From assembly GCA_012729535.1 (NCBI GenBank), contig JAAYCY010000067.1, positions 1 to 34,471 on the forward strand: a DNA stretch of 34,471 bases. The letters run 5' to 3'. The translations under genes and the position numbers were made by a program. The notes below the pieces were generated by a model. The model saw only the letters and a list, made by a program, of their open reading frames with translations, made no database searches and was not told where the DNA came from. This DNA is from Methanomicrobiales archaeon. GTDB lineage: Archaea > Halobacteriota > Methanomicrobia > Methanomicrobiales > Methanospirillaceae. This document shows, piece by piece, positions 5,249-34,471 of the stretch. Numbering within the stretch: the first letter of the stretch is position 1; the number at the start of each line of letters is the position of its first letter.

Positions 5249-5818
5249 ATGCCTAAAAAAGTTTTTTTCTGTATTGCTAACCAGGATATGAATGATCTTC
5301 GAATAAACGTGGTAAGATCTCATAAAATTACTCATGATAATCACGGCGGTTATTTCCCACCATATCTATGGGAAGCTGCTACAAAATCCGGAGATGATTC
5401 TATTAGAAAACTGATTGACGTACAGATTCAGCAATCTTGTGTTTCTGCTGTTTTGATTGGTACTAATACCTACAATCAACGGTGGGTTAAATATGAAATT
5501 TTTCGAAGTATGAAAAAAGGTAACAAACTTCTTGGTATCCATATAAACAGTATTGAAGGACGTGATGGACGAGGAAAACCTCTTGGCCCGAATCCTTTTA
5601 GTTATCTAGGGTTCTCATATAGTCCGGACGGAAAAGAATTTATCCCTCATGAATATGTAGATGAAAATTGGGTTCCTTTCAAGGATATGCCTGTATATAA
5701 GGTCAGAGAGGTCCCTGAGCAACATCGGAATAAAATATTTACCTTAACGAAAATTGCAAAAACCTATGACTGGATGGCAGACAAAGGTCAGGTAAATTTT
5801 CCCCAATGGATAGAGTAA
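5249..5818 (+). CDS. TIR-like (DUF1863/ThsB-type) protein
   Basis: The 189-residue protein is a single TIR-like domain of the MTH538/DUF1863 group, the group that includes ThsB of the Thoeris anti-phage system. Diagnostic parts are the first strand and loop (KKVFFCIANQDMNDLRINVV, residues 3-22), the WEAATKSGDDSIRKLID segment (41-57), and SAVLIGTNTYNQRWVKYEI (66-84). In the last, E83 sits where TIR NAD-hydrolases or cyclases carry their catalytic glutamate. A purine-rich GGAAGG lies about ten bases before the ATG. In Thoeris, ThsB makes a cyclic ADP-ribose signal that switches on ThsA, an NADase with SIR2 and SLOG domains. No ThsA-like gene is present here: the neighbours are a VWA protein and a transglutaminase. 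It may be an orphan signal generator acting on an effector elsewhere, a stand-alone NAD-consuming toxin, or a non-defence protein. The fold is confident, the function is inferred. Confidence 0.8.
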   Translation: MPKKVFFCIANQDMNDLRINVVRSHKITHDNHGGYFPPYLWEAATKSGDDSIRKLIDVQIQQSCVSAVLIGTNTYNQRWVKYEIFRSMKKGNKLLGIHINSIEGRDGRGKPLGPNPFSYLGFSYSPDGKEFIPHEYVDENWVPFKDMPVYKVREVPEQHRNKIFTLTKIAKTYDWMADKGQVNFPQWIE

Positions 5819-27600: not shown

Positions 27601-28851
27601 ATGCTTCTTCTCATGACGGTTGGGACAGGTATCGGGACTAGTCATGAAGATGCCCAGTCCAGACTAGTCAGATCCCTCAGTTATGCAATTTCATCGTATC
27701 ATCCGCAGACAATAATTTTTTTCTGCTCAGAAGAGAGTCAGAAAGCAATTGATCCAATACTCGCTGCACTCAAGAGAGATTATAAGATAGATCCACCATC
27801 TCATTCGCTGTGCATGGTTGAGGAACCGGCAAACTTCTCTCGTTGTTTTGAATTGATATACGGTGTAGCGTCTCTGTACAGGGAAGAAGAGGTAGTAATC
27901 GAAGCTTCATCCGGAACACGGGAGATGATTATGGCTGCAGAAATCGTCTCGTTCCTGACAAGAAACCCGGTTTCTCATGTTACCGGAGAAAAATCCGGCG
28001 GAATGGTGATTCCAGGGACGGAAAGAATCAAGGAGATGCAACTGTATGCCGCATATGACCGTCTCCAGCTCCACCGATCTATCGAAGCATTTAATGCATC
28101 CCATTTTAGCAGTTCACTTCGGCTTCTTGGAGGAATCAGTAGTATTCCTGAACGGGATATGTATTATGCACTCTTTAACGGGTACTGGCACTGGGACAAG
28201 ATGGATTATGAAAAGGCCTACCAGTACCTGAAACATATTCCTGATCTGGACCTTCTCATTCCTCTAAACCGTGAGTTTTTAAAACGTCTTCTTGAATTGG
28301 ATAGCCTTGATGATACCCTCCTGAACCGGAAAGAGCGGTATAAAGTCAGGCAGCAAAAGTATACCTACATACTAATAGACCTGCTCCATAATGCAAAACG
28401 ACGGATTGACGGAGAGCGGTATGACGACGGACTTGCCCGGCTTTACCGGGTGGTTGAACTGATTTCACAGGTTCTTCTGCTCAACTACGGAATTGATGAT
28501 AATGAAGAGAAGATACGGTTTGTTGATTTGAAGAAAAAACTGAAAAAACAGGATATATCTTCCTATGCCAGAAGGGCAGACCGGAACGGGATAATCCGCA
28601 TTGGTCTTCGAGCAAAATTTACGCTCCTTGAAGATTTAGGCCTGCATGGAGCAGATGAGTGGTATAACATTCTTCAGGATTATATCATGATCAGAAATGA
28701 TTCCATCCTTGCTCATGGATTAACTCCGGTGCCTGGTGATATTGCAGTTACCATGTGGGAAAAGGTTAGAAAAGTCATCACCGAGTCATGCAATGGATGT
28801 GGCCAGGACCTTGAAAAATTATATCAGTCATCAGAATTCCCGGTTTTATAG
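27601..28851 (+). CDS. CARF-HEPN protein (TIGR02710-like, CRISPR type III ancillary RNase)
   Basis: The 416-residue protein matches the TIGR02710 group. An N-terminal CARF domain (about 1-150) has the strand-loop MTVGTGIGTS (5-14), IIFFCSEESQ, and EASSGTREM (101-109), the conserved ligand-loop motif that normally reads D-T-SGTK-M. It is followed by HVTGEKSGGMVIPGTERI. The C-terminal helical domain carries R365-N-x5-H372 (RNDSILAH), the active site of HEPN ribonucleases. In type III CRISPR systems such proteins are switched on by cyclic oligoadenylate and degrade RNA. No cas gene or CRISPR array is in the window, so the signal must come from elsewhere or differ. The stop is TAG with an in-frame TGA eight codons later. 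It precedes ycaO by 69 bases in the same direction. The domain calls are confident, the trigger is inference. Confidence 0.85.
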   Translation: MLLLMTVGTGIGTSHEDAQSRLVRSLSYAISSYHPQTIIFFCSEESQKAIDPILAALKRDYKIDPPSHSLCMVEEPANFSRCFELIYGVASLYREEEVVIEASSGTREMIMAAEIVSFLTRNPVSHVTGEKSGGMVIPGTERIKEMQLYAAYDRLQLHRSIEAFNASHFSSSLRLLGGISSIPERDMYYALFNGYWHWDKMDYEKAYQYLKHIPDLDLLIPLNREFLKRLLELDSLDDTLLNRKERYKVRQQKYTYILIDLLHNAKRRIDGERYDDGLARLYRVVELISQVLLLNYGIDDNEEKIRFVDLKKKLKKQDISSYARRADRNGIIRIGLRAKFTLLEDLGLHGADEWYNILQDYIMIRNDSILAHGLTPVPGDIAVTMWEKVRKVITESCNGCGQDLEKLYQSSEFPVL

Positions 28852-28920: not shown

Positions 28921-30216
28921 ATGGCAGAGTCATATACTGCAGGACAAACTCATAACCTGTTACTCTTTTTCTCTCTGGAAGAAAACGTATATGAACACAT
29001 GATACTCCAGTCCTGTAAAAAACTCTACCAGCAGGAGACTCACCGGACCAGGTCACCTGAAGAAACCTATGAACTGGTCAAAGACCTTACCAGCCCGGCC
29101 GGAATCACCCGTGTTGCTGATATCACCGGACTTGACCGGATCGGAATACCGGTTTTTTCATGCATCAGGCCGGTTGCAGCCGAAGGAGCAATCACGGTAT
29201 ACAATGGAAAAGGTGCAACCCCTATTGCAGCCCGGGTATCAGCCATCATGGAAGGGCTTGAGCGATATTCTGCAGAATTACATGACCGGCAGACGGTCAC
29301 GATGACCTATGACCAGATAAGGTCAGAGAAAAATGCCATCCACCCGGATTTTCTCATACTTCCGGAGGATACAAAGCAGGAATGGCCAATCCCCTGGTAT
29401 CCGGCATATGATATCATCCGGAATGAAGAAATCTGGGTACCAGCCCACGCTGTCTTTCATCCGGTTCCCCGGATAATGGGGAAATTATTCAGAACAAGTA
29501 CAAATGGAATTGCGTCAGGAAATACCTTCGAAGAAGCAGTGTTTCACAGTCTTTGTGAGATAATTGAGCGGGATGCATGGTCTTTAGTTGAAGCATGCCG
29601 GCTGGGCGGCCCGGTTATCACCAATATTACTCATCCGGTAGCAGCAGATCTTATTGAAAAATTCAGGGCAGCAGGTGTTGATGTTATTCTCCGGGACATA
29701 ACAAGCGACCTTGGAATTCCGACAGTTGCGGCAGTATCAGATGACACCCAGCTTCGTGACCCGACCCTGCTCTGCATCGGAATGGGTACACACCTATGCA
29801 AAGAGATTGCCATACTTCGTGCATTAACAGAAGTTGCCCAGAGCAGGGCAACCCAGATTCACGGAGCAAGGGAAGATACACAGTCCACTCATTTCCTCTC
29901 CAAGGTAGGGTATGACCGGGCAAAGCGGCTGAATAAAAAATGGTTTGACCCCGAACCAAGAATTTCATACGATGATATGTCATCATATCACACCGATGAT
30001 TTCCTTGACGACATCCATATCGTCATTGACCGGTTGAAAGAGGCAGGTCTTGACCGGGTTTTGGTTGTTGACCTGACAAGACCGGAGATCGGGATTCCGG
30101 TGGTCAGAGTTATTGTTCCAGGGCTTGAACATTATGCCATGGATCCTGAACGACTTGGAGAGCGATGCAGACGTGCAAGACGTAATTATTTACCTGGGTC
30201 CAAGCCTGCCAGTTAA
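28921..30216 (+). CDS. ycaO: YcaO-domain ATP-dependent thioamidation/cyclodehydration enzyme
   Basis: YcaO enzymes activate backbone amides with ATP; in methanogens the YcaO-TfuA pair installs the thioglycine of methyl-coenzyme M reductase McrA. The protein has the family blocks: GxATPIAARVSAIMEGLERYSAEL with the Mg-ATP binding glutamates (about 98-121), STNGIASGNTFEEAVFHSLCEIIERD (about 191-216), IGMGTHLCKEIAILRALTEVAQSR and the C-terminal PEIGIPVVRVIVPGLEHY. The frame from 28921 has 431 residues; the typical YcaO beginning (SCKKLYQQETHRT) follows an ATG at 28999, so the first 26 residues are doubtful, and neither start has a strong ribosome binding site. tfuA starts inside its last codons. 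Gene order ycaO-tfuA and the methanogen context make McrA the probable substrate; a peptide-natural-product role is less likely as no precursor gene is visible. Confidence 0.95.
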   Translation: MAESYTAGQTHNLLLFFSLEENVYEHMILQSCKKLYQQETHRTRSPEETYELVKDLTSPAGITRVADITGLDRIGIPVFSCIRPVAAEGAITVYNGKGATPIAARVSAIMEGLERYSAELHDRQTVTMTYDQIRSEKNAIHPDFLILPEDTKQEWPIPWYPAYDIIRNEEIWVPAHAVFHPVPRIMGKLFRTSTNGIASGNTFEEAVFHSLCEIIERDAWSLVEACRLGGPVITNITHPVAADLIEKFRAAGVDVILRDITSDLGIPTVAAVSDDTQLRDPTLLCIGMGTHLCKEIAILRALTEVAQSRATQIHGAREDTQSTHFLSKVGYDRAKRLNKKWFDPEPRISYDDMSSYHTDDFLDDIHIVIDRLKEAGLDRVLVVDLTRPEIGIPVVRVIVPGLEHYAMDPERLGERCRRARRNYLPGSKPAS

Positions 30217-30811
30217 CGAGGCAGAAAGAATCCTCCCAGCTACGTACCGCCCTCCGGTACGAAGAGTAGACCTCCTTGAAGCAATAAGGATTAAACCCCT
30301 GATTGTAGGCATCATTGACGGGGTATTCTTTGAGGATGCGGCTGTAGGACACCGGGAAGTGCTTGAGGTAATAAAAGCTGGGATCACCGTTGTGGGAGCA
30401 TCAAGCATGGGGGCACTCAGGGCTTCAGAACTCTATCCATTTGGCATGATAGGAATCGGAGAAGTATTCCGGATGTATAAAGAAGGAATCATCGAATCAG
30501 ATGATGAAGTAGCCCTTATGTGTGATCCGACAACGCACACCGCTTTTTCTGAAGCACTGGTAAATGTCAGGGTTACTCTTACCCATGGAGAAAAATCCGG
30601 TTTTTTCTCAAAAGAAGAAACAGAAAAAATAATAGAGACCGGAAAAAAACTCTGGTATCCGGACAGGTCATGGGCACGATTATTAACTGATAGTATTTCA
30701 GATACAAAGAGAAGAGATGAAATAAAAGCCTGGCTCGTGGCAAATGCGATAGATCAGAAGAGAGAAGATGCAAAGATGGCACTTATGCACATCAGAGACA
30801 TACTATCATGA
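30173..30811 (+). CDS. tfuA: TfuA-like partner of YcaO
   Basis: TfuA works with YcaO in thioamide formation, probably by delivering or activating sulfide. The start is set at GTG 30173, giving VQDVIIYLGPSLPVNEAERIL, which is the usual TfuA beginning, with GGAGAG about ten bases upstream. The in-frame ATG 60 bases earlier lies deeper in ycaO and adds residues not expected. The 213-residue protein keeps YRPPVRRVDLLEAI, IVGIIDGVFF, GHREVLEVIKAGITVVGASSMGALRASEL and IGIGEVFRMYKEG, all TfuA core motifs. It overlaps ycaO by 44 bases and its stop overlaps the next ATG (ATGA), so the three are translationally coupled. Confidence 0.93.
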   Translation: MQDVIIYLGPSLPVNEAERILPATYRPPVRRVDLLEAIRIKPLIVGIIDGVFFEDAAVGHREVLEVIKAGITVVGASSMGALRASELYPFGMIGIGEVFRMYKEGIIESDDEVALMCDPTTHTAFSEALVNVRVTLTHGEKSGFFSKEETEKIIETGKKLWYPDRSWARLLTDSISDTKRRDEIKAWLVANAIDQKREDAKMALMHIRDILS

Positions 30812-32240: not shown

Positions 32241-32410
32241 AACCTTCTTCCGGTTTTGTACCCGTATGCCCCCATTGCAAAGATAATAATTCCGATAATA
32301 AAGGTAACATACCGCCACCATTGGGAACTGTGCAGGATATTGTTAATCCCAAGGCCGATGAAGATAACACCGGCAATCATGGTGATGATGTTCGAAGTTT
32401 TCACATCCAT
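32237..32410 (-). CDS. Small two-helix membrane protein
   Basis: The start at 32410 is preferred because GGTGAT lies nine bases upstream; an ATG three codons earlier abuts that site. The 57-residue protein has two hydrophobic helices (IITMIAGVIFIGLGINNIL and YVTFIIGIIIFAMGAYGY) and a basic end (KTGRRF). No family is recognised. It is convergent with moaE, with overlapping stop codons. The strong ribosome binding site and helix pair suggest it is a genuine gene. Confidence 0.6.
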   Translation of the reverse strand: MDVKTSNIITMIAGVIFIGLGINNILHSSQWWRYVTFIIGIIIFAMGAYGYKTGRRF

Positions 32411-32513
32411 GGATATCATATCACCTTGTCAGATATCGAAATAGTATTGTCAGAAGAGATTTTCGGTTGGGGGAAACCAGACATTCAACGTTACTTCACC
32501 CTATGGGCAAAAT

Positions 32514-34244
32514 CTAACCTGTCATCTCAAACACTGAAAATCCCTGGTTCCCGATACAATATATTACAAACAGCCGGATATTCGCTTCCGGATACTCTTG
32601 CCGGAGCCCTTCTGCATACCCCCGAATCTGGAGAGTATCCTCTTCCCGGACGGTGAACTCTTCAAGAGAGGTTTTCATCCCGTCCCATTCAGTATTTGAG
32701 AAATATTTGAACTCAATAATCCATCGAAGCCCGGCAAACTTCTCATTGAACTTACCGACAAATTCAAGATCAGTCCAGCCCTTCGGGTATGATCGTTCAA
32801 CATTCCAGACAAACCACGTGGAGAGGTACCGGCTACAAAGCTCAAAGAATGTTGTCCGGTAAAAATTCTCATTCACCTAGGAAAAGATAGCCTCAGGAAG
32901 CTGACTCACGTAAAGACGCCAGTAATCAGAGAAGAGCCGGGTAAGATCTGGTTTTCTGATAAAACCCTGCATCATCTCCTTGTATCTCTCCTGCCCAGGG
33001 TCAATACGAAATACTTCATTAAAGTACTCAACTGCAATCTCTTTCATTGAGAGATTTGGAACCTTCAGATCAAACTCATCCTTTCTGGTAAGGAGACCGA
33101 GGTAAAAGAGCGAGACCGGATAAAAAGCAGGTTCGAAGAATTCAAGCATATTAAACTGTGAGACAAGTGCCTTCCGGTTAAAAGGAATTGATTCGTCCGT
33201 TGTCAGCTGAAAAACCAATTCACGGGTATTCTCCTCATTGCCTCTGGTCAGTCTTCGTATCCATGTGAGGTCAGTCCTCATATTCAGGTCAAAGAGATCC
33301 GCAGGAATGGTTTTGTTCTCACTGAGCTGGCGGAGAAAGTACATGAGCATGGTTGGATTATACACCGCTTCAGAATCAGGATTCACAAAATGATACCCAT
33401 TATACTGATTTTTTATCAGGTCATTCACCTCTCCCCGGGTGGTTGGATCAATACAAAAATCCTGATATATCGTATCGACCAGTTCAGAAACTTCGGCCTG
33501 GGTAAACCCTAGCATATGCTCAAAGCCAGGGTCTAGCGTCAGAAAAGATGCAATATTATAACTCGAAGTCAGATCATCGATAGCTATGGGAAGCACTCCG
33601 GTAATGAATACATTCGCAACAGCACCGGTTTGTCGTCCTTCCTTGAGAACCTTAAAGAAAGTTCTAAGAAAACTTAACCCTGATGTTATCTCATCATACA
33701 GATGATCCTAGTGAGAGGTAATATACTGGTTGACAAAATTGTCATATTCATCGATGATTACATATACCTGGGATGCACCGGTTTTCTGCAGATAGCCAAG
33801 CCAGAGGGAGAGGGCAGTAGAGGCTTTTTCATCTGGGGCTAATTCAGGAGCAGACTCCATATAATCAGGATATGAGTACCATGTCTCCAAAATACGGCCG
33901 GTGCAATGACGGTTAAATGCATATTCAGTATCGTTGAGATCATCTGAAACAGCAATGACAGAAAAATCAAATTTCAGAACAATATACTGGTTATGTGTTT
34001 CGGTCGGGTTCTGTCCTATCCAGGTATGCCCGAACAGTTCCTCAAACCGATGAGCCTCACAGATATCATAGTAATATGCAAGTATCGAACAGAATAGGGA
34101 CTTTCCAAACCGACGGGGACGAAGGAAGACAGGATTTTGCACACCCTCAAGTCTTTCTATATATCTGGTTTTATCGATGAAATACCCCTTCTTCCGGACC
34201 ATCTCTGCATAATTCATTATCCCATAAGGAACCCGTCTCACCAT
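32514..34244 (-). pseudogene. AAA-ATPase-like/PD-(D/E)XK (DUF1703) gene with two in-frame amber codons
   Basis: One reading frame from 34244 (GGTGA seven bases upstream) to 32514 encodes a complete ~575-residue protein of the group with an AAA-ATPase-like domain and a C-terminal nuclease domain (DUF1703). Recognisable parts: YFIDKTRYIERL, the P-loop-like RPRRFGKSLF, VYVIIDEYDNF (Walker B), then FFKVLKEG and VFITGVLPIAIDDLTS, and finally NENFYRTTFFELCSRYLS and DLEF...IIEFKYF with nuclease-type acidic and lysine residues. The frame is interrupted twice by TAG, at codon 179 (33708-33710) and codon 456 (32877-32879). Nothing is shifted or missing around them. The terminal codon is also TAG (32514-32516), with TGA five codons further on. 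It is either an early pseudogene or a gene read through UAG. Family members are abundant in methanogens, often in multiple copies, and their role is unknown. Confidence 0.85.
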
Positions 34245-34471
34245 TCTCTTTCACCCGGATTGATAATCTTTCGTCTTTACGATATTTAGCAGCCATGATC
34301 GGAAAATGAGAGAGTTTTATCAGCCCCACTTATGCAACCTATATAGTAGAACTCAATAAAAAATCTCGAATATTTTATCACTAATATTAATTAATATTAA
34401 TTAAATATATTTACCTAAATCTTGCTGTACACCAATTGCATTTTCATGCAAATATCAAATGTATAGTCTCC
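34245..34471. other. AT-rich end of window, promoter region of the DUF1703 gene
   Basis: The 227 bases before the DUF1703 gene include two tandem copies of TAATATTAAT (about 34382-34401) in an A/T-only stretch, and a small hairpin TTGCAT-TTTC-ATGCAA at 34436-34451. No gene is visible. The TATA box of the minus-strand gene is probably among the A/T motifs near 34280-34300, but none stands out. Confidence 0.4.

Follow-up and report, generated by a model that had tools for sequence, protein, structure and literature searches.

What does UAG mean in a Methanomicrobiales archaeon where it twice interrupts an otherwise open reading frame? The window analysed here, 34,471 bases long, is an entire contig. 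It comes from a draft assembly of 86 contigs that adds up to 3.09 Mb, is 96.8% complete and has its nearest relatives in the collections in Methanospirillum. Close to its end lies a gene of the DUF1703 type with two internal TAG codons and a third as terminator (Table 1). The first-pass annotation took a recent pseudogene as the default explanation and raised, as an alternative, that UAG is read as pyrrolysine or suppressed. Its description of the gene, from the coordinates and the TAG codons to the TGA that follows the terminator, proved correct in every detail that we checked.

Table 1. Features of the interrupted DUF1703-type gene (window positions)
Feature	Position	Strand	Remarks
Whole gene, AAA-ATPase_like + PDDEXK_9	32514..34244	-	577 codons; two internal TAG
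Upstream region up to contig end	34245..34471	-	kept in M. stamsii; start and promoter without obvious damage
Start codon ATG	34244	-	intact
Segment 1, open, 178 codons	33711..34244	-	Walker A-like RPRRFGKS 34121-34098; Walker B DEYD 33752-33741
In-frame TAG, codon 179	33708..33710	-	CAG (Gln) in 10/10 other Methanospirillum copies compared
Segment 2, open, 276 codons	32880..33707	-	remainder of AAA module and linker region
In-frame TAG, codon 456	32877..32879	-	CAG (Gln) in 4/4 closest copies and most others
Segment 3, open, 120 codons	32517..32876	-	holds the entire PD-(D/E)XK nuclease domain; WTDLEFV 32777-32757 and EFKYF 32714-32700 contain candidate motifs
Natural terminator TAG, codon 577	32514..32516	-	same codon in M. 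stamsii ortholog, there TGA
In-frame TGA	32498-32496	-	five codons past terminal TAG

Pfam profiles recognise both domains. PF09820 (AAA-ATPase_like) reaches 147 bits from segment 1 alone; its positions 1-159 precede the codon-179 TAG, and positions 162-201 resume directly past it, in segment 2. PF08011 (PDDEXK_9) scores 79 bits on segment 3, with a match that begins one codon past the codon-456 TAG. This confirms the earlier observation that conserved motifs continue across the two sites. Both domains of DUF1703 are present and the whole-protein frame is interrupted at codons 179 and 456; the gene is therefore filed as a broken member of the family. Judged by its domains, the intact protein should be an ATP-controlled nuclease. 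None of the PADLOC defence models matched the gene, and a search by sequence for relatives of solved structure returned none.

Other genes of the window include one for a Csm6-type protein with Csm6 HEPN and 6H domains (27601-28851, + strand), which ends in TAG, and adjoining YcaO and TfuA genes (28921-30811, + strand), followed by genes of the ThiF and MoaE families. The YcaO/TfuA pair is known for thioamidation in methanogens. At 5249-5818 (+ strand), a protein with a ThsB-like TIR domain of the Thoeris type is encoded, possibly by a defence gene.

An open frame interrupted by TAG alone is what pyrrolysine decoding would produce. In this genome, however, the PylS N-terminal model and PylD find no match at E 0.001, and the PylS C-terminal model and PylB yield weak matches below cut-off, of a kind present in 13 of 14 control genomes; one control, Methanosarcina acetivorans, passes. 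PylS exceeds its cut-off neither here nor in any of 60 related genomes from the genus, family and order, 61 in all. This agrees with a published survey whose table enters M. hungatei JF-1 without pylS and which gives pylS as restricted to Methanosarcinales among the archaea then known (PMC3037878). The residue replaced is, moreover, a glutamine in a nuclease and not part of a methylamine methyltransferase. Within the limits of a draft that is 97% complete, these results rule out pyrrolysine decoding, and the chance that we leave to it is vanishingly small.

The tRNA complement also speaks against a reassigned codon. Of 43 candidates, 42 are readable and none has the anticodon CUA, in a set that is incomplete, tRNA-Trp and tRNA-Cys being missing as well; a tRNA gene that lies in a gap or carries a large intron could thus have escaped detection. 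The 43rd candidate is weak (25.7 bits), and ARAGORN does not accept it as a tRNA. A tRNA-Gln(CUG) is present. The tRNA-Tyr (L095:100-207) carries a 32-base intron; unless intron mode is switched on, ARAGORN takes it for a tRNA-Gly.

TAG is an ordinary stop in this genome. It terminates 62 of 668 long ORFs (9.3%) in a 0.97-Mb sample made of stretches of the genome including the window, and 8.3% in the sample of the related genome G001. From about two TAG-ended genes in some thirty, the first-pass annotation had implied that such ends are rare; at about 9% of long ORFs over 974 kb, that rarity holds in a weaker form than stated. Open stretches past the stop have a median of 12 codons for TAG, 14 for TAA and 12 for TGA. 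Where a TAG-ended gene has an ortholog in the G001 sample, the two ends are no more than five codons apart in five of six cases, this gene's own end among the six, and the sequence past the TAG is unlike that of the G001 ortholog. Among 126 ortholog matches, only this gene has mid-gene stops; those of the others fall at extreme N-terminal codons and are explained by over-long start choices. With no PylS, PylB or PylD above cut-off, no CUA tRNA found and TAG an ordinary stop, the proposal of pyrrolysine or suppression is not supported, and suppression by another tRNA is unlikely. These are the outcomes that the first-pass annotation had named as refuting its alternative, to the extent that a draft genome lets them be obtained.

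Comparison within Methanospirillum points to a plainer answer. The closest intact ortholog, in M. stamsii, has 92% protein identity and aligns over 576 codons with no gap, which bears out the claim of a single frame free of insertions and deletions. Further orthologs are found in genome G001 (88%) and in the M. hungatei MAG M59 (81%). Against the intact orthologs, the gene carries two disabling differences, both nonsense changes. The alignment of homologues places a CAG glutamine at both codons (Table 1); because relatives carry CAG there, the best explanation for each interruption is that one C-to-T change struck a glutamine codon.

That both stops are TAG is unsurprising on codon content, which makes TAG the commonest expected nonsense outcome. 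In the intact M. stamsii ortholog, 25 codons lie one C-to-T change away from a stop: 18 CAG, 3 CAA and 4 CGA. With this content, two C-to-T nonsense changes would both give TAG with a probability of 0.51; over all nonsense changes, the value is 0.23-0.30, depending on transition bias. It had been argued that random decay should leave mixed stop types and frameshifts. The argument fails for this gene, since codon content favours TAG and indels would not be expected after so young a loss. The main lesson is cautionary: a clean TAG-only break is expected in a freshly dead, CAG-rich gene, so any proposal of recoding should first set the identity of the stops against the gene's codon content.

The age of the loss follows from substitutions over codons 101-576; codons 1-100 were left out of the branch counts, which the mosaic identity to relatives makes unreliable there. 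Since the split from M. stamsii, the gene's own branch has accumulated 34 synonymous, 12 missense and 2 nonsense changes, and the sister branch 42 synonymous and 12 missense, with no difference between the two (Fisher P 0.50). The own branch is far from neutral (P 6e-13), with dN/dS of about 0.1. A Poisson bound leaves at most about a tenth of it free of selection, and no relaxation is measurable. Purifying selection almost throughout the branch implies that the stops arose in about its last tenth, and the absence of indels is accounted for by so recent a loss. If about 5-10% of the branch were neutral, only 0.3-0.7 new stops would be expected, against the two present. The same branch pattern is expected from assembly errors or from readthrough that sustains the protein, so the test dates the loss and does not by itself prove it.

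The first of these, that the TAGs come from consensus errors or strain mixture in the draft while the organism itself has a whole gene, would fit a dN/dS with almost no relaxed period. The draft is in 86 contigs, the gene starts 227 bases from the contig end, and similar tandem copies of the kind seen in M. stamsii could have been mis-merged. Two errors of the same kind, both at CAG codons and without an indel, would nevertheless be unusual, and codon 179 is CAG in every Methanospirillum copy compared, so that no paralog seen could donate its TAG. We regard this explanation as improbable.

Low-level UAG readthrough by a near-cognate glutamine tRNA, for instance tRNA-Gln(CUG), would keep some full-length protein and is compatible with an intact, constrained frame in which glutamine is the residue replaced at both sites; the tRNA itself exists. 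Yet no suppressor tRNA appears among the 42 tRNAs (Trp and Cys missing from the set), no unusual RNA structure that could act as a readthrough signal follows either TAG (z -0.9 and 0.1), TAG is an ordinary stop elsewhere, and the loss is young enough for the constraint to be inherited. Such readthrough is very unlikely. Equally doubtful is the broader possibility that some full-length protein is still made, with UAG read as glutamine by an ordinary or undetected suppressor tRNA, whether as something tolerated or as low-level control of the nuclease. Were readthrough true, UAG suppression would, to our knowledge, be indicated in Methanomicrobiales for the first time.

Could the shortened products be functional, as a 178-residue ATPase piece, a separately started nuclease piece, or both? 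Each segment is conserved, and GTG AAT GAG stands right past the TAG at 32877, offering a start. In the relatives, however, that GTG is just the conserved valine codon that comes next, and no ribosome-binding site is evident at the usual spacing. None of the full-length open-frame relatives is split, and the 178-residue piece would lack everything past Walker B. Functional fragments therefore seem highly improbable.

The surroundings of the gene suggest an unsettled family. Along the gene, identity to relatives varies in a mosaic fashion, and its downstream flank matches that of a partial copy, the third member of the M. stamsii tandem cluster; for these reasons, the locus probably went through tandem gain or loss of copies together with recombination. 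The M. stamsii cluster (L004:5001-10102) consists of two complete copies in tandem, plus a 3' fragment, and the part of the window compared with it (32249-34471) has one copy. Upstream, the window copy is like the first M. stamsii copy, and its downstream flank is like the fragment, as if the array had contracted here or expanded there.

Broken copies of the family occur across the genus and in sister species, with TAA, TGA and TAG stops as well as frame breaks. The M. hungatei MAG M59 ortholog (L024:1501-3228 / L003:5001-6728) has a lone TAG of its own at codon 56 in a frame that is otherwise open; this codon is variable in the family, being CAG, GCA, CAC and others elsewhere. It is an independent break in the same gene. 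A second ortholog interrupted by TAG could be held against simple decay, but the variability of that codon and the TAA and TGA stops of other broken copies weaken the objection.

We now propose, with a probability of roughly 0.86, that this DUF1703-type gene for an AAA-ATPase/PD-(D/E)XK nuclease became a pseudogene very recently or, in the sampled strain, exists as a nonsense allele. The evidence thus supports the default reading of the first-pass annotation. The gene stayed under normal purifying selection in its lineage until recently, when two CAG glutamine codons turned into TAG, each by one C-to-T change. Translation would then halt at codon 179, just past Walker B, and no nuclease domain would be made; the third TAG is the ordinary terminator of the gene. 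The background is probably one of family turnover, with tandem, recombining copies, many of them broken in sister species. The data directly show the stops, the CAG codons opposite them in relatives, purifying selection on the branch, the lack of pyl genes above cut-off and of a CUA tRNA among those detected, and the use of TAG as a stop; that function was lost, and in what order things happened, is our inference. For a pseudogene, the tally of two stops, few if any surplus missense changes and no indel is slightly tidy. Selecting a gene for its two stops biases towards such a picture. The disabling observed is of an ordinary kind.

Several known systems help to place this gene. With the pyrrolysine-decoding genes of the mtmB, mtbB and mttB type it shares an in-frame TAG in an otherwise open frame; it differs from them in that no pyl machinery or CUA tRNA was found here, the gene is of another type, and close relatives have glutamine at the site. 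DUF1703 proteins (PF09820 + PF08011) have the same two domains in the same order, and the Walker A variant RPRRFGKS and Walker B motif DEYD, described for this architecture in a Methanospirillum hungatei protein, are shared by the window gene (PMC1913061); the window copy, unlike these proteins, is broken by two nonsense codons. In Cardinium, expansion of the DUF1703 family and recombination between its copies have been reported, resembling what we deduce for the family here (PMC6387759). Closest of all is the ortholog of M. stamsii Pt1, which has the same length, a conserved upstream region and the same terminator position, whereas its frame is unbroken: it reads CAG at codons 179 and 456, ends in TGA, and belongs to a cluster that comprises two complete copies plus a fragment.
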